Positions 13,665 through 20,035 of a DNA stretch of 20,350 nt are shown here, one piece after another; positions within the stretch are counted from its first letter, which is position 1, and each line of letters starts with the position of its first letter. The position numbers and the translations under genes are program-made. The DNA is from a virus. The notes below the pieces were generated by a model, which was given only the letters and a program-made list of their open reading frames with translations, searched no databases and was not told where the DNA came from. The DNA lies in IMG/VR virus record IMGVR_UViG_3300035070_002521, positions 1 to 20,350 of that record; one strand, given 5' to 3'.

Positions 13665-15107
13665 ATGGAAACAAAACTAGACAAAGGTTATACCGACAAC
13701 CTCCCATTATGGGCTCAGGTTCGTGCGGCTATTCGAGGTAAGCAAGGGGCCATTAAGTTACTTGATGGTAATTGTGGTTATTACGGATTGGTGTCGCCTG
13801 CATATCGTGTGACTAATGATAATCACGCTGTTGTGAATGAGCGTCGCAAGTCATACTTTGCGCGCGGTCGATTCTTTAACGCTACCGGTCGAACTCATGA
13901 CGCTTACGTTGGAATGGTTGGCGCAAAACCTGTTGAGACTGAAGTTCCAGAGGGTCTAGCTGGCTTTATGGAAAGTGTCGACGGTGAAAACTCAACTATC
14001 AATGACTTTGCGCTAGAGATTGCGTCCGAGCTATTGGTTACTGGTCGTTACGGTGTATTAGTTGACCCACCAAGCAATGAAGGCAAGACTCGCAGCCAAA
14101 TGCAGCCTGCAAAACTGATTGGCTACAATGCCGAAGCAATGCCTCATCACGTGGTATCTGGTGGCAAGTTAGTGCTGGTGGACTTGCTTGAGCTGTATTG
14201 GGAAAAGGAGGGTGATGAGTACGAGTGCAAAGAACAAGTGCGCCGCCTTGAGTTAATCGAAGGTGTTTATACATCAAAGATTAAGCGTGATGGTGATTGG
14301 GAATCTATCGTAAAGCCTACCATCGATAATAAGACTCTTGATTACATCCCATTCCAGTTCTTTGGCTCAGAGCAGAATAAGCCGATTTATGACCGCCCGG
14401 TAATGTTTGATTTGGCTCATGAGAATATGGGTCACTTCCAATTAAGCTGTGACAACCTGGAGAACTTGCATTATCACGGGCAGGGTATGACTAACGTGTT
14501 TAGTGACGCTGACCCAGATAGCATTGCTGAGATGAATCCAGATGGTATCGATGTGGGCGCTAAAGGTGTTAACCAATTCGCGCAACAGGATAGAGTTGAG
14601 ATTCTACAGATTGCGGCTACTGGTGCTATCTCCACAGAAATGGAGCGAGTAGAAAAGCGCATGATTATGTTGGGCGCTCAAGTAACTCAAGATGCAGCCA
14701 CTAATCAGACTCTAGGCGCTAAAGAGATTGAATCTAATGCGTCTACCAGTCAGCTAAAGCGAATCGCTGTAAACACATCCAAGGGCTTGCAATGGTGTAT
14801 CGAACAGGCCGCATTGTTCATGAGTGTTACTGGCGAGATTAAAGTAAAAGTTAATGACCAATTCGTAACTGATGACATGACAGCCCAAGATGTTCAATCA
14901 GTATTCCAAGCGGTTCAAGGCGGTTCGCTACCTCAATCAGTATTGCTTAACACTGCGAGAAAGGCAGGTTACACAGATAAGACTAACGAGGAGCTTATTG
15001 AGGAACTTGAAGAGTCTGGTATTGAAGGTTCAACTGAGCGTGAGGCTGAATTGCAAATGGAGATTGACAACCTGCGTGAGCAACTGGCTAACCAGGGTGG
15101 TGAGTAG
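13665..15107 (+). CDS. Portal protein, DUF4055 type
   Basis: A 480-aa portal that forms the ring at one head vertex through which DNA is packaged. It shows the DUF4055 style: ERRKSYFARGRFFNATGRTH and YVGMVGAKPV near 58-90, SVDGENSTINDFALEIASEL near 105-125, then TGRYGVLVDPP, and the long helical stretch NLENLHYHGQGM in the wing/stem region. The C-terminus is a charged coiled coil (EREAELQMEIDNLREQLANQ). It lies between terL and the MuF-type gene, the usual portal position. It starts 5 nt after terL and its TAG overlaps the next GTG. Confidence 0.88.
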   Translation: METKLDKGYTDNLPLWAQVRAAIRGKQGAIKLLDGNCGYYGLVSPAYRVTNDNHAVVNERRKSYFARGRFFNATGRTHDAYVGMVGAKPVETEVPEGLAGFMESVDGENSTINDFALEIASELLVTGRYGVLVDPPSNEGKTRSQMQPAKLIGYNAEAMPHHVVSGGKLVLVDLLELYWEKEGDEYECKEQVRRLELIEGVYTSKIKRDGDWESIVKPTIDNKTLDYIPFQFFGSEQNKPIYDRPVMFDLAHENMGHFQLSCDNLENLHYHGQGMTNVFSDADPDSIAEMNPDGIDVGAKGVNQFAQQDRVEILQIAATGAISTEMERVEKRMIMLGAQVTQDAATNQTLGAKEIESNASTSQLKRIAVNTSKGLQWCIEQAALFMSVTGEIKVKVNDQFVTDDMTAQDVQSVFQAVQGGSLPQSVLLNTARKAGYTDKTNEELIEELEESGIEGSTEREAELQMEIDNLREQLANQGGE

Positions 15108-16216
15108 TGGCGATAAACCAAGAGTTAACAGCTATTGAGGCTCAGCATGGTGTTTATATTCAACGCCTAGCTGTGCAGTATGGCAACGAGTCCAAGCCTT
15201 TTATCGATTCAATGAGCGAGCGCATTAGTGCTCGCATCAATCGAGAGGTTGGCAAAAATCTAACGTCCAATCGCAAGGCTAAGTTGCTAGAAGATATCGA
15301 CGCGATTGTTAGTGAGGAACTAAAGGGCTACACGGACTCACTCAAAGCTAACAATGCAGACCTAGGTAAGTATGAGGCAGACTTTCAGGCTAAGACGCTA
15401 TCTAGCCTATACCAAGCAACTGAGGCTGCATCGATATCTAAGTCGGTTATCAAGACTAATGCTAACAACACTCTAATCAAACTTGGTGATGACTCATACA
15501 CGGGCTACACGCAGATGCTTAACAATTACGTTAGGCAGAATAGGGAGCAGATTGACAACATCGTACAGCAAGGCTTTGTGAGCGGCGCAACAACGCGAGA
15601 GATTGCATCGCAGGTATTAAGCGAGGTTGATAATCGAATTGTTAAGACTCGCAAGCAGGCTATGAATATTGCAAAGACCGGTTCGAACCACTATGCAAAC
15701 TCGGCGCGCAAAACTTACTTCGATGATGAGCCTATTGTTATTGGCACTCGCAGGATTGCAACGCTTGACAGTCAAACGTCTCAATACTGCCGAGGAATTG
15801 ATAACACAGTCGTACTAAAGACTGATTCTAACTATCGCAAAGCTTTTTCGCCGTTCCATCCGGGTTGTCGTACGGCAAACATCCCAGAGGTTGATTCGCG
15901 ATATAAGCACGAAGATGATGGCGGCGAACGACCTGAAAACTTCCGTAATGCTAACGATGGATTACTTGAGCCAGGTGTTACCAGCTCAAAGAAAACCTAT
16001 TACGAGGCAATTAAAGGTTTGGATGCTAAATCGCAGGACGCAATTCTTGGCCCCACACTAGGCAGGGCATTCCGTAAAGGCATCAAAGAAGGCTCACTAA
16101 CTCCAGAGTCATTCGCTAAGTTGACGATTGATGAGAAGAACCTAAAGCCCCTAACCCTTCGCGAGATGGAAGCAAAGGACAGCGAGCTATCAAGGCTAAT
16201 CAAATCAGTTAAATGA
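15107..16216 (+). CDS. Minor head protein, SPP1 gp7 / Mu F type
   Basis: A 369-aa head morphogenesis protein, usually a minor component bound near the portal. The N-terminal ~190 residues are helical (VRQNREQIDNIVQQGFVSGA near 142-161 is the family's R-x-x-I-x-x-G-x-x-x-G region). The conserved MuF core is at 219-261: TLDSQTSQYCRGIDNTV with C228, and SPFHPGCRTANIPEV with H251-P-G-C-R255. The remaining ~100 residues carry no toxin domain that I recognise. The GTG start overlaps the portal stop (TAGTG), with GGGTGGTGAG upstream. Confidence 0.9.
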   Translation: MAINQELTAIEAQHGVYIQRLAVQYGNESKPFIDSMSERISARINREVGKNLTSNRKAKLLEDIDAIVSEELKGYTDSLKANNADLGKYEADFQAKTLSSLYQATEAASISKSVIKTNANNTLIKLGDDSYTGYTQMLNNYVRQNREQIDNIVQQGFVSGATTREIASQVLSEVDNRIVKTRKQAMNIAKTGSNHYANSARKTYFDDEPIVIGTRRIATLDSQTSQYCRGIDNTVVLKTDSNYRKAFSPFHPGCRTANIPEVDSRYKHEDDGGERPENFRNANDGLLEPGVTSSKKTYYEAIKGLDAKSQDAILGPTLGRAFRKGIKEGSLTPESFAKLTIDEKNLKPLTLREMEAKDSELSRLIKSVK

Positions 16217-16363: not shown

Positions 16364-16570
16364 ATGAAAGTCGACCTAACAATTGAATGTAAGAAAGTAT
16401 CTGAAATTGACCCGTGGAGTGTGCATCGCCTAGATGTTAGTTTGGTTGATGCATGCTTGGATTCTGTAATTGAAAGTGTTGGTCTTGAAAAGTTGCTTAA
16501 CCACATTGGTGAAAATGACTTGATTGAGCACCTTGAGAATCGTGGTTTTAAAATTACAGATGAGCAGTAG
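16364..16570 (+). CDS. Hypothetical protein, 68 aa
   Basis: An acidic, helical protein (MKVDLTIECKKVSEIDPWSV..., then VDACLDSVIESVGLEKLLNH) with AAGGAT before the ATG. First gene after the CRP-like promoter in the block between MuF and scaffold. Not recognised as a structural protein; more likely accessory. Confidence 0.65.
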   Translation: MKVDLTIECKKVSEIDPWSVHRLDVSLVDACLDSVIESVGLEKLLNHIGENDLIEHLENRGFKITDEQ

Positions 16571-16584
16571 GAAAGGAAAGCAAA

Positions 16585-16629
16585 ATGACAACATATAACA
16601 GTTACGCAGAAGCTAAGATTGAAAAATAA
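16585..16629 (+). pseudogene. 14-codon gene remnant similar to start of the 17570 gene
   Basis: A short ORF, MTTYNSYAEAKIEK then stop, with a strong ribosome site (AGGAAAGGAAAG). Its N-terminus parallels the start of the 238-aa protein at 17570 (MNYSSFADAKIAHP): Y-N/S-S-Y/F-A-E/D-A-K-I. The nucleotide sequences have diverged, mostly at third positions. It lies directly upstream of the endonuclease gene, so it may be the truncated front of a gene interrupted or replaced when the endonuclease arrived. It could instead be an independent tiny gene. Confidence 0.45.
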
Positions 16630-16678
16630 ATCATGCGGTGTTAAAGTGCAGTTGATTAATTTTATGGACGGTTGATTT

Positions 16679-17566
16679 ATGAGAAAGAATCTTACCTATG
16701 ATTACTGCGCTAGCATTTGCTCTGAATTTAAAACAAGGTCGGAGATATCAAGAGAGCACCAGACAGTGTACAAAAAGGTAATTCAAAGCGGATGGAGTGA
16801 ACTTCTTCCTAGTAGAGCCAATACAGAGCATACAAGGGATAGCTGCATGACCAATGCTGCAAAGTGCAAAACAAGGGGTGAGTTTGCCAAGCGCTACCAA
16901 GGGATGTACAGGACTAGTAGAAAGAATGGATGGATGGACGACTTCTTTCCAGGTAGTGGTATAGCAAAGCCACAGGCTTGGAGTCTACTTTCGGCAGTTA
17001 GAGAGGCAAAAAAGCATCTCAGCTCAGGTGATCTAATGCGATCAAATAGGTCTGCATACAATTATCTTAAAGATCTGCATCTAGTTTCAAGGGTTTTTGG
17101 GAATAGAAGTAAGGACTTTTGGACGCCTGGAGTGATGAGGGCTCATGCTTTGCTTTGTGAAAATAGGAGTGATTTTTATAGATATTACAGGTCTGCGTAT
17201 TCAGCTATGAACAGACTTAATTGCAAGGAATATGTAATAGCAGACATACCAAGAGGAAAGGCTGACTCTGATATTTTTTACGCATGGCAGGTAATATCAC
17301 CATCATGCATGGACGTATGGAAGGTTGGGGTTGCGTCGTCAAAAATAAAGCACAAACAGAGAGCTTCAGATGTATCAAGAAGTCTAGGCGTATCAATTGG
17401 CACATACTTCCAGAAGTCGATCGGAGAAAAGTCTGCCTTAATGCTGGAGAGAGAAGTGCTAGATCGGTTTGATGGGTTTTCTGGAATGTCTGGCGATGGA
17501 TCCACCGAACTAATAATTGCAACGCCGAGTGATATTGAGAATATTTTTAATAAATTAGGATGGTAA
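16679..17566 (+). CDS. Putative homing endonuclease: HTH-like repeats plus GIY-YIG domain
   Basis: A 295-aa protein. The N-terminal two thirds hold four related repeats of about 35-40 residues (9-43, 57-90, 105-140, 153-187), each with the plan K-T/S-R-S/G-E/D-F...Y...G-W. Examples are KTRSEISREHQTVYKKVIQS and KTRGEFAKRYQGMYRTSRKN, a pattern seen in DNA-binding parts of phage mobile endonucleases. The C-terminus (~198-293) reads as a GIY-YIG nuclease of the T5orf172/MUG113 type: IFYAWQV, VWKVGVAS, R228 in KQRASDVS and E258 in LMLEREVLDRF. Arginine codons are mostly AGA/AGG, unlike the CGY codons of the capsid gene, which suggests foreign origin. It sits in a structural module beside a gene remnant, as expected for a free-standing homing endonuclease. 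Activity is inferred. Confidence 0.72.
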   Translation: MRKNLTYDYCASICSEFKTRSEISREHQTVYKKVIQSGWSELLPSRANTEHTRDSCMTNAAKCKTRGEFAKRYQGMYRTSRKNGWMDDFFPGSGIAKPQAWSLLSAVREAKKHLSSGDLMRSNRSAYNYLKDLHLVSRVFGNRSKDFWTPGVMRAHALLCENRSDFYRYYRSAYSAMNRLNCKEYVIADIPRGKADSDIFYAWQVISPSCMDVWKVGVASSKIKHKQRASDVSRSLGVSIGTYFQKSIGEKSALMLEREVLDRFDGFSGMSGDGSTELIIATPSDIENIFNKLGW

Positions 17567-17569
17567 ATT

Positions 17570-18286
17570 ATGAATTACAGTAGTTTTGCTGATGCAAAAA
17601 TCGCACACCCAGATGAAGATATTTATTCTTACAAGGGTAAATACCAGACAGGTAGTGCACCATGCAGACTTGGCGAGATGTGGAATAAATGCAACCCTGC
17701 CGACCACTGCATGACAGTTGAGAAATTCTTGGCTGATGGTCATAAGTTTATTGAGGGGGATGTTTATCTAAACTCAGATGGCCGAACTCTTGGCGTTGTA
17801 AATATTCCAGACTACAACAATAAGCGATCAACTATTGATTGTGGTTTGTATGTTCTGCGCGCAGCAGCACTAGAGGAAAAGTCTAGCGAAAAGGTTGAGT
17901 GGGATGGTAAAGGATTGCCGCCTGTCGGTGTTGAATGTGAGGTTGTGTTTGTCGAGCATGAGCACAAAGGTTATGGTGAGTTTCTTGTCCTTGGTTATCA
18001 CTCTAATTATGTATGGATGGAGTATGTTGGCGAGCTAAGTAATAAATCAAAACACTACACAGCTAGAGTTGAGTTGGTTAAATTCCGAAAACCAGAAACC
18101 CAACAACAACGCGAAGACCGTGAGCGATTGGAAGCGGCTATTGAGCTTCATGATTTGTTCAATAACACTTACTACAATGGTGATATGGAAGGAGTTTCAA
18201 ATACTGAGTGGGGTAACGCACCAGAACAACTTAAGAAATGCTATTTCGAAATGGTAGACAAAACCAACTACCGAATCAGCAAATAA
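17570..18286 (+). CDS. Conserved phage-type hypothetical protein, 238 aa
   Basis: A soluble protein with the segment WDGKGLPPVGVECEVVFVEH near 105-124, a motif (G-L-P-P-V-G-x-E-C-E) recurrent in accessory proteins of gammaproteobacterial phages. It is followed by a beta-rich region (YGEFLVLGYHSNYVWMEYVG) and a helical tail beginning FRKPETQQQREDRERLEAAI, also common in that group. The N-terminal ~70 residues (ADAKIAHPDEDIYSYKGKYQ ...) resemble the 14-codon remnant at 16585. It starts 3 nt after the endonuclease stop with AGGATGG as ribosome site located inside the endonuclease gene. Function unknown. Confidence 0.7.
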   Translation: MNYSSFADAKIAHPDEDIYSYKGKYQTGSAPCRLGEMWNKCNPADHCMTVEKFLADGHKFIEGDVYLNSDGRTLGVVNIPDYNNKRSTIDCGLYVLRAAALEEKSSEKVEWDGKGLPPVGVECEVVFVEHEHKGYGEFLVLGYHSNYVWMEYVGELSNKSKHYTARVELVKFRKPETQQQREDRERLEAAIELHDLFNNTYYNGDMEGVSNTEWGNAPEQLKKCYFEMVDKTNYRISK

Positions 18287-18290
18287 AACC

Positions 18291-18320
18291 AAGCCTCGCC
18301 ATTGTGCGGGGCTTTAATTT
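18291..18320 (+). terminator. Terminator before the scaffold promoter
   Basis: A 9-bp stem AAGCCTCGC/GCGGGGCTT (18291-18299 and 18306-18314, one G-U pair), with loop CATTGT, followed by the T-rich TAATTT. It ends the accessory cassette. Confidence 0.78.
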
Positions 18321-18342
18321 GTAAGTATTGACTTTTGAATGT

Positions 18343-18394
18343 TATAATCATTTCGTGCGGTTAGGTCGCATAATATATTCAAACGCATAAGGTG
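18343..18394 (+). promoter_or_regulatory. Late promoter and conserved leader upstream of scaffold
   Basis: TATAAT (18343-18348), then a hairpin near +2 (TGCGG 18356-18360, loop TTAGG, TCGCA 18366-18370), then CATAAGGTG (18386-18394) as ribosome site. Order, loop and ribosome segment match those before terS, while the stem bases differ but still pair. TTGACT at 18328 is too close (9 bp) to act as the -35. Confidence 0.65.
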
Positions 18395-18401
18395 CATTGG
18401 A

Positions 18402-19061
18402 ATGAACTTAGAACAATTACTTGCTTTAGGTCTTGATGAAGACAAGGCAAAACAGGTCGCAGCACTTCATGATGAAGATGTTACCGGCTTGAAAACAAAG
18501 AATACCGAGTTGCTTGGTAAGTTTGAGTCGTATAAAACTGACTTGAGCACTAAAGACCAAGCGATTGAAGATGCTCGACAGGTTGCAGCTGCTGCTGAAG
18601 AGGCTAAGCTAAAAGCCAACGGTGACATGGAAGGTCTGAAGAAGCATTATGAGGAGCAACTAGCTAACACTACAGCTCAAATGAAACTTCAAACTGAAAC
18701 AGCTCAGAACGCACTTAAGCAGCGTGACTTATCAGAGGTTCATTCTGACATTATGCGCGGTGTACATGAAAACTTCACACCGGCAGCTCAGGCTTTACTG
18801 AGTGCAAACACAGAAGTTAGCTATGACGAGCAAGGCAATAAGAAAGTAACTATTCGTCACGGCGATAAAGAATTTAACACAACTGCTGATTTTAAAGAGT
18901 TTGCAAAAACAGACCCTACATGGTCGGCAATGTTAAGTGCACCTAATACTCAGGGTTTAGGCGCGAATGGCAATCGAGGCGGCGAGGCCCCTTCGCACCA
19001 TGGTAAATCTTACTCAGAGATGTCTTTGAGTGAGCAAATCGAATACAACTCACAAAAGTAA
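18402..19061 (+). CDS. Capsid scaffolding protein
   Basis: A 219-aa protein placed just before the major capsid gene, as scaffolds are. It is acidic and helical. A long heptad-like coiled coil runs from about 25 to 108 (LKTKNTELLGKFESYKTDLS, then EGLKKHYEEQLANTTAQMKL), followed by a C-terminal region with YDEQGNKKVTIRHGDKEF and an end rich in glycine and serine. This is the style of gp20-like (DUF4355) scaffolds, which guide shell assembly and leave before packaging. No protease motif is seen. AAGGTG precedes the ATG, from the conserved late leader. Confidence 0.82.
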   Translation: MNLEQLLALGLDEDKAKQVAALHDEDVTGLKTKNTELLGKFESYKTDLSTKDQAIEDARQVAAAAEEAKLKANGDMEGLKKHYEEQLANTTAQMKLQTETAQNALKQRDLSEVHSDIMRGVHENFTPAAQALLSANTEVSYDEQGNKKVTIRHGDKEFNTTADFKEFAKTDPTWSAMLSAPNTQGLGANGNRGGEAPSHHGKSYSEMSLSEQIEYNSQK

Positions 19062-19072
19062 GGTAATTAATT

Positions 19073-20035
19073 ATGGCATTAGGTGATTTTCAAGAGTTTA
19101 CAGAGTACGGCTATAACGCATTTGTAAACACAATTCAGCAAAAGATTGAGCTATGGAACGGTGCAACGCAAGGCGCATTGATGCTTCAGTCTATTGCATT
19201 CGCTGGTGATGTTTACGAAAAGGCGGCATTTGAGAATCTATCTTCTCTTATTGGCGACCGTGACCCATCATCTACAGCAGCAAACACAGAGCACGCACTA
19301 AGCGAGCTTTTGCAAGTTGAAGTTAAAATGGCGTGGGGCATGCCTAACATTACGTATACCAACACAGCATTTGACTGGACTAAGCGCGACCCTCGCGAAG
19401 CTGGTACGCTCTTTGGTAATGCAGTCGCTGAAGGTGCAATGCAATACATGCTTAATAATGCAATCGGCTCAGCTGTTGCGGCTATTAAAGATGGCGCGCA
19501 TGGTACTGTTGTTTATGATGGCACAGCAGCAGTTGCAAGTCCTGAGTCACTAAACAAGGCTTCTGGTCTATTTGGCGACCGTCGCTCAGCTATCACCTGT
19601 TGGATTATGCACTCTAAGTCTCAAACAGACATCTTTGGTTACGCTCTTGCTAACTCAAACGACCTGTTCGACTGGGCTGGCGTTCGAGTTATGACTGATG
19701 GCCATGGTCGCCCGTTGATTGAAACTGATTCAGACGCACTATTCTTTGACAATGCAGGCACTGACAACTACATCCAGCTTGGTTTGGTTGCAGGTGCTTC
19801 AATGGTTAAAGAGCAGGGCGACATGCGCTCATACAACGTTACAGACCTAACAGATGTGAATGCCAAACAACTAATGAAGTCTGAAGGTTCGTTTGGTATC
19901 GGCATTAAAGGTTACACTTGGAATAAGAACGTAACTAAGCCCACATCGGCACAAGTTCGAACTCCAGCTAACTGGTCTCCAATCACAGATGTTGGCCTTA
20001 AAGATACTGCTGGCGTTAAGTGTATTACACTTTAA
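19073..20035 (+). CDS. Major capsid protein
   Basis: A 320-aa protein immediately after the scaffold with a good ribosome site (AAGGTAATTAATT). Features typical of HK97-fold capsid proteins of this genome type: short N-terminal arm (MALGDFQEFTEYGYNAFVNT), spine-like helix region, LLQVEVKMAWGMPNITYTNT near 82-101, AVAEGAMQYMLNNAIGSAVA near 117-136, ITCWIMHSKSQTDIFGYAL near 174-192 and GVRVMTDGHGRPLIETDSD near 203-221. The order portal, MuF, scaffold, capsid supports the call. No cleavage site or added Ig-like domain is obvious. Codon use favours CGT/CGC arginine, consistent with high expression. Confidence 0.88.
   Translation: MALGDFQEFTEYGYNAFVNTIQQKIELWNGATQGALMLQSIAFAGDVYEKAAFENLSSLIGDRDPSSTAANTEHALSELLQVEVKMAWGMPNITYTNTAFDWTKRDPREAGTLFGNAVAEGAMQYMLNNAIGSAVAAIKDGAHGTVVYDGTAAVASPESLNKASGLFGDRRSAITCWIMHSKSQTDIFGYALANSNDLFDWAGVRVMTDGHGRPLIETDSDALFFDNAGTDNYIQLGLVAGASMVKEQGDMRSYNVTDLTDVNAKQLMKSEGSFGIGIKGYTWNKNVTKPTSAQVRTPANWSPITDVGLKDTAGVKCITL

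Follow-up and report, generated by a model that had tools for sequence, protein, structure and literature searches.

In the window, a 20,350-base viral contig from a Vibrio phage which carries a phage packaging and head module, one gene has two starts, and these lie on either side of a probable endonuclease gene. We consider it likely, with a probability of roughly 70%, that this is a homing-type GIY-YIG insertion into the start of the gene, with a donor-derived front end re-supplying the 5′ end. Because there is a single instance, and no donor phage with both the endonuclease and the MNYSSFADAKI front end was found, we only infer the mobility of the endonuclease, its cleavage activity and its co-transfer with the front end. 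The genes of the region are arranged as follows (L numbers are our labels for fetched loci).

15107 to 16216, minor head protein, following terminase and portal in the upstream part of the module
16364 to 16570, plus strand, ORF, 68-aa gene directly upstream of the stub
16585 to 16629, plus strand, 14-codon ORF (the stub), native start MTTYNSYAEAKI, then GAA AAA TAA
16679 to 17566, plus strand, 295-aa ORF, probable endonuclease
17570 to 18286, plus strand, ORF, 238-aa gene (the interrupted gene), starting MNYSSFADAKIAHP
18281 to 18420, plus strand, downstream flank, 99.3% DNA identity to L007 and L014, both endonuclease-free
18402 to 19061, scaffold
19073 to 20035, major capsid

The first-pass annotation had taken the 14-codon ORF, with its ribosome site, for the old start of the 17570 gene, and had predicted that relatives without the endonuclease would carry a gene which starts with the sequence at 16585 and runs directly into the 17570 frame. 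Syntenic relatives of this kind were sought with the 238-aa, minor head, scaffold and capsid proteins as queries, and three were found: L007, L014 (Vibrio phage 1.144.O) and L002. Each has one uninterrupted gene of 227-238 aa with the start MTTYNSY..AKIANP, located, as in the window, after the minor head protein gene and before the scaffold gene, and running straight on in the expected frame. The endonuclease is therefore polymorphic for presence and absence, and the empty site is intact in all three. The start regions of these genes are 87.5-92% identical to the stub over 38-48 aligned bases; L007, whose minor head protein is 94% identical to that of the window, shows 87% identity to the upstream flank and 95-99% to the downstream flank. 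Because the genes of the relatives are uninterrupted and the downstream DNA is near-identical, we take the stub to be the original start, separated from its body by the insert. The contrary outcome would have been that the 14-codon ORF is a conserved mini-gene in its own right; this was looked for and discarded, as no relative has the ORF alone.

The same relatives bear on a different reading, in which the window once held tandem paralogues, the endonuclease entered the first copy, the body of this copy was lost, and the gene at 17570 would be its native neighbour, read from a start of its own. Modules of the family are present more than once in some phages, for example in L004, L005 and L044. 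Against this, a single copy stands between the minor head and scaffold genes in each of the three syntenic relatives, and in two of these the DNA immediately downstream of it matches the window at 99% identity; the reading would also require an extra duplication and an extra deletion. We regard tandem paralogues as unlikely.

The stub encodes MTTYNSYAEAKIEK, that is 12 native codons and two extra codons before the stop. Its Shine-Dalgarno was found as proposed (16570 to 16577, plus strand, GGAAAGGA, seven nucleotides upstream of the stub ATG, from the sequence), and the leader at 16571-16584 is common to the window, L015 and others. At positions 16582-16621, identity to the intact start is 90% in the syntenic L007 and 100% in Vibrio phage jenny 12G5, and at 16584-16621 it is 92% in L014. 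The family-standard start, M(T/K)TYN(S/T)Y..AKIANP, stands at the front of full-length genes in a sample of about 35 Vibrio phages and viral contigs; the window is the sole sampled member in which it is reduced to a stub. Starts similar to the stub occur in over 100 Vibrio phage records; the stub-region DNA matches 113 such records at a permissive cut-off, so that some of these may be chance matches. Tight degenerate patterns for the stub or the new start gave no match in the viral contigs searched. Eight pattern matches in genome contigs, including a Bacillales 13-codon ORF (L050), all came from non-Vibrio genomes and were taken as chance. The RNA structure of the leader between stub and nuclease did not differ from shuffled sequences (z 0.03).

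At the protein level the stub and the 238-aa gene have YNSYAEAKI and YSSFADAKI in common. The match between the two starts, already noticed in the first-pass annotation, holds up in a ranking of all 1,340 start-codon peptides of the window, in which the stub comes out far ahead of all others in similarity to the 17570 start (BLOSUM62 score 34, the next 23; none of 20,000 random 13-mers reached 34, with a maximum of 26), so that chance is not the explanation. The comparison with relatives, in which the stub turns out to be the family-wide start motif, is the stronger evidence.

Homologues of the interrupted gene (phrog_13341 and phrog_29722) are found by tblastn in 416 phage records, 415 of them from Vibrio. 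The members occupy varied genome positions, namely between terL and portal, at helicase-primase genes, between portal and scaffold, and after the capsid gene. The family is a mosaic (L002-L066): DNA anchors of 40-85 bp, nearly the same from member to member, are interspersed with blocks that do not align and with C-terminal modules of several unrelated kinds. In the window, the anchors downstream of the start and the segments which frame the alien DNA are as follows.

16622 to 17569, plus strand, inserted DNA, similar to no family member, left edge at 16621-16625
17557 to 17560, plus strand, Shine-Dalgarno AGGA of the new start, in the last codons of the endonuclease gene, sequence TTAGGATGGTAAATTATG, nine nucleotides to the ATG
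17570 to 17685, plus strand, replacement front end, starting MNYSSFADAKIAHPDEDIYSYKGKYQTG
17680 to 17766, plus strand, anchor 2, KCNPADHCMTVEKFLADGHK, mostly 85-95% DNA identity in family members that do not align otherwise
17855 to 17903, plus strand, anchor 3, LRAAALEEK.SEKVEW, 96% identity to L014
18088 to 18139, plus strand, anchor 4, KPETQQQREDRERLEAA, 86-97% identity in many loci

BLAST depth over the fetched loci is 33-35 up to 16621-16625 and 0 from 16640 to 17560, and about 28 loci resemble the window again from 17680-17686 onwards. The right edge of the alien DNA, and with it that of the imported front end, may therefore reach to about 17680, where sequence comparison places it, and anchor 2 is likely to be the right-hand recombination boundary. 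Because the family swaps blocks between anchors anyway, an independent exchange could also have brought in the front end. The right-hand boundary may stem from such an exchange or from a mis-join during assembly at anchor 2 (60-85 bp); the contig comes from a public collection and is probably metagenomic. The join between stub and nuclease and the presence of a second, different start are independent of this question.

This mosaic structure, with near-identical DNA anchors between unalignable blocks, also invites the idea of an ordinary block exchange, in which homologous recombination between anchors replaced the front and the endonuclease came to lie beside it independently. Such an exchange would keep one start, without a stub and without a second start three bases past the stop codon of the endonuclease gene, and the part replaced here is the start anchor itself. 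We therefore judge this account improbable, somewhat more so than that of tandem paralogues.

The surroundings of the gene contain further observations. The 68-aa gene upstream has 81% DNA identity in L047, where it lies beside terL and away from the family of the interrupted gene, and its protein has counterparts with 50-72% identity in eight Vibrio phages and with about 31% in a further two; since it stands beside unrelated genes in other Vibrio phages, it moves between contexts too. After the 238-aa gene a terminator scan finds a strong intrinsic terminator at 18291-18314, which is kept in L007 and L014. An Rfam isrJ match at the same position, just over the gathering score, is probably the terminator hairpin only. 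Endonuclease genes of the HNH type occur in relatives: one lies between the portal and minor head genes in L009 (5334-6011; also in L008), a relative without the insertion of the window, and one overlaps the 3′ end of a family member by about 30 bases in Vibrio phage 209E38-1 (L020, 1775-2440).

The 295-aa protein scores below every Pfam and NCBIfam cut-off and has no named PHROG match, and its class assignment, that of a probable GIY-YIG (MUG113/T5orf172-like) endonuclease, is based on remote sequence evidence. Residues 52-263 are 23.7% identical to BcepSauron gp125 (E 2e-4), which passes Pfam MUG113, a family we take to be of the GIY-YIG type. The homologue L058 reaches MUG113 (24.1 bits, cut-off 22.3) and aligns across the following segment.

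17273 to 17512, plus strand, putative GIY-YIG catalytic domain, IFYAW...VWKVG...R...LEREVL...STEL, aligned to the L058 MUG113 domain

Y201, K215, G217, R234, E257 and E277 are invariant across three homologues, and residues 2-128 match Rhizobium phage proteins with a GIY-YIG domain. The protein contains about four repeats of 40-45 aa (repeats 1-2, p about 0.0005; 2-4, p 0.002; 3-4, p 0.018), and this repeat region also matches annotated GIY-YIG proteins; presumably the repeats bind DNA. Such repeats are usual in T5orf172/MUG113 phage nucleases, the two families being related (PMC10448857), so the repeated domains expected of a GIY-YIG phage homing endonuclease of this kind are present. An AlphaFold model from the single sequence had a mean pLDDT of 39.5 and was not used. 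A search for other carriers of the nuclease returned remote homologues only, none of them within the family of the interrupted gene.

An endonuclease could also be borne by an intron or intein, with stub and body rejoined by splicing. The native part of the stub does end in T (AAGATT), and splicing would restore the reading frame as AKI-AHPDEDIY. But Rfam gave no group I or group II intron match, even at E values up to 10, and the conserved start motif and a ribosome site are present at the downstream gene itself. As the stub frame is closed by TAA, there is no intein; the nuclease has its own start and stop instead of being in frame with both host halves. Splicing is thus very unlikely.

The new ATG at 17570 lies three bases after the stop codon of the endonuclease gene, and the functional start, MNYSSFADAKI, retains the protein motif of the family. 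Its DNA is different. A search with positions 17560-17690 against 50,697 phage records returned no Vibrio phage match, and among the fetched loci the best match to the front end is a divergent member, L036, with 76% over 72 bp, which is also the sole one within 17569-17636. The starts were compared over the 27 bases coding for Y..I in 38 family members. Here the stub is identical at 27 of 27 positions to the intact starts of L018 and L062 and has a mean identity of 0.82 to the family, whereas the new start has a mean of 0.59 and a nearest value of 0.74. The own mean identities of the members are at least 0.68 and their nearest-neighbour minimum is 0.78, which places the new start below all 38; the sample was drawn partly by similarity to the stub, and the result held after it had been widened by members chosen because their protein resembles that of the 17570 gene. 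The diverged codons that the first-pass annotation had pointed out are borne out by the direct comparison: the two starts share 17 of 27 bases and differ in eight of nine codons, with the protein motif kept. Leaving Ser aside, five conserved residues allow a choice of codon, and the new start has a different codon for all five; the three residue changes from stub to new start (N/S, Y/F, E/D) are all conservative. Codon agreement with the family is 0.41 at the new front, the lowest among 35 sequences (with only seven informative codons), and a typical 0.76 in anchor 2 of the same gene.

Since it is the dead copy that has kept the family sequence and the live copy that departs from it, the front end must already have been different on arrival, which points to an import from a divergent relative. 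For the same reason the least probable of the alternatives, a target-site duplication at insertion with later drift of one copy, is set aside although the insert is flanked by two starts, since drift would be expected in the dead copy and a fresh duplication with drift is ruled out.

The insertion which we favour would have proceeded as follows. A GIY-YIG homing-type endonuclease gene would have entered the start of the gene which follows the minor head gene and precedes the scaffold gene. The native start segment of 36-38 bp is itself one of the DNA anchors which many otherwise dissimilar Vibrio phages have in common; being near-identical in scores of them, it would make a good shared homing target. 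A break in or near this segment may have been repaired from a donor phage in which the endonuclease gene lay directly upstream of that phage's own divergent version of the gene. The repair would have copied the endonuclease and the front of the donor gene, probably up to the next strong similarity at 17680-17766. The gene body would now be read from the new ATG by use of the Shine-Dalgarno in the last codons of the endonuclease gene, and the gene would thus retain a complete N-terminus. The respelled front end may escape target recognition, which would make the carrier immune, and the respelling may also limit loss of the insert through recombination between the two starts.

In fungal mitochondria, mobile ORFs are known that replace the end of a gene (Allomyces atp6; Glomus atp6, atp9, cox2 and nad3; PMC3630166). 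As in the window, the endonuclease ORF lies inside the gene, the native end persists as a remnant close to relatives, and the in-frame end linked to the homing endonuclease gene is diverged, largely at synonymous sites. For Glomus atp6 the remnant has 91% DNA identity to a relative and the two copies have 63.5% to each other (PMC3630166); the corresponding figures of the window are parallel, with 90-100% for the stub against relatives and 63% between the copies. The reasoning from a conserved remnant and a diverged copy was applied earlier to these Glomus and Allomyces mobile ORFs (PMC3630166). However, they replace the 3′ end (C-terminus) in mitochondria, whereas in the window a native remnant and a diverged in-frame copy are present at the 5′ end of a phage gene, together with a new start codon and ribosome site. 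By analogy, the window would represent a phage 5′-end version of a situation known from fungal mitochondria, the closest parallel being at the opposite gene end.

Other systems share single aspects. Mitochondrial introns with a duplicated gene piece resemble the window in that the mobile element carries the piece, which is a proposed route to partial gene replacement, but they are described as introns and the window has none by Rfam. Free-standing homing endonucleases of the T4 type and intronless homing (PMC2988022) are similar in that the endonuclease gene spreads with co-conversion of flanks or interrupts a coding gene; in the case of mobE of phage Aeh1, nrdA is split into separate coding regions, whereas here the lost piece is re-supplied in another spelling. 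The T5orf172/MUG113 phage homing endonucleases (PMC10448857) share with the window the probable nuclease class, the repeated and presumably DNA-binding domains and a site by head or terminase genes, and the "nuclease genes at boundaries of genetic exchange" of the same study are likewise located at the edge of exchanged DNA. A search of this study for duplicated or truncated gene starts yielded no case of a stub plus a new start, and in the open literature, with most subscription papers outside its scope, we found no phage homing endonuclease gene with a replacement gene end.

The window offers a clear sequence footprint of how a selfish nuclease can break a coding gene of a phage and yet leave this gene functional by means of a new start, and the start segment is a direct target-site candidate for an uncharacterised nuclease family. 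More tentatively, and with a probability we consider rather low, the nuclease may be a home-and-rescue element, which targets the conserved start anchor and travels with a cleavage-proof, respelled front which repairs the gene it breaks, so that the host gene would bear no cost. Should the unit travel whole, it would be a natural counterpart of engineered homing drives with a recoded rescue copy of their target. If this proposal is true, invasion of many phage lineages would be possible, since the anchor is common to over a hundred Vibrio phage records.
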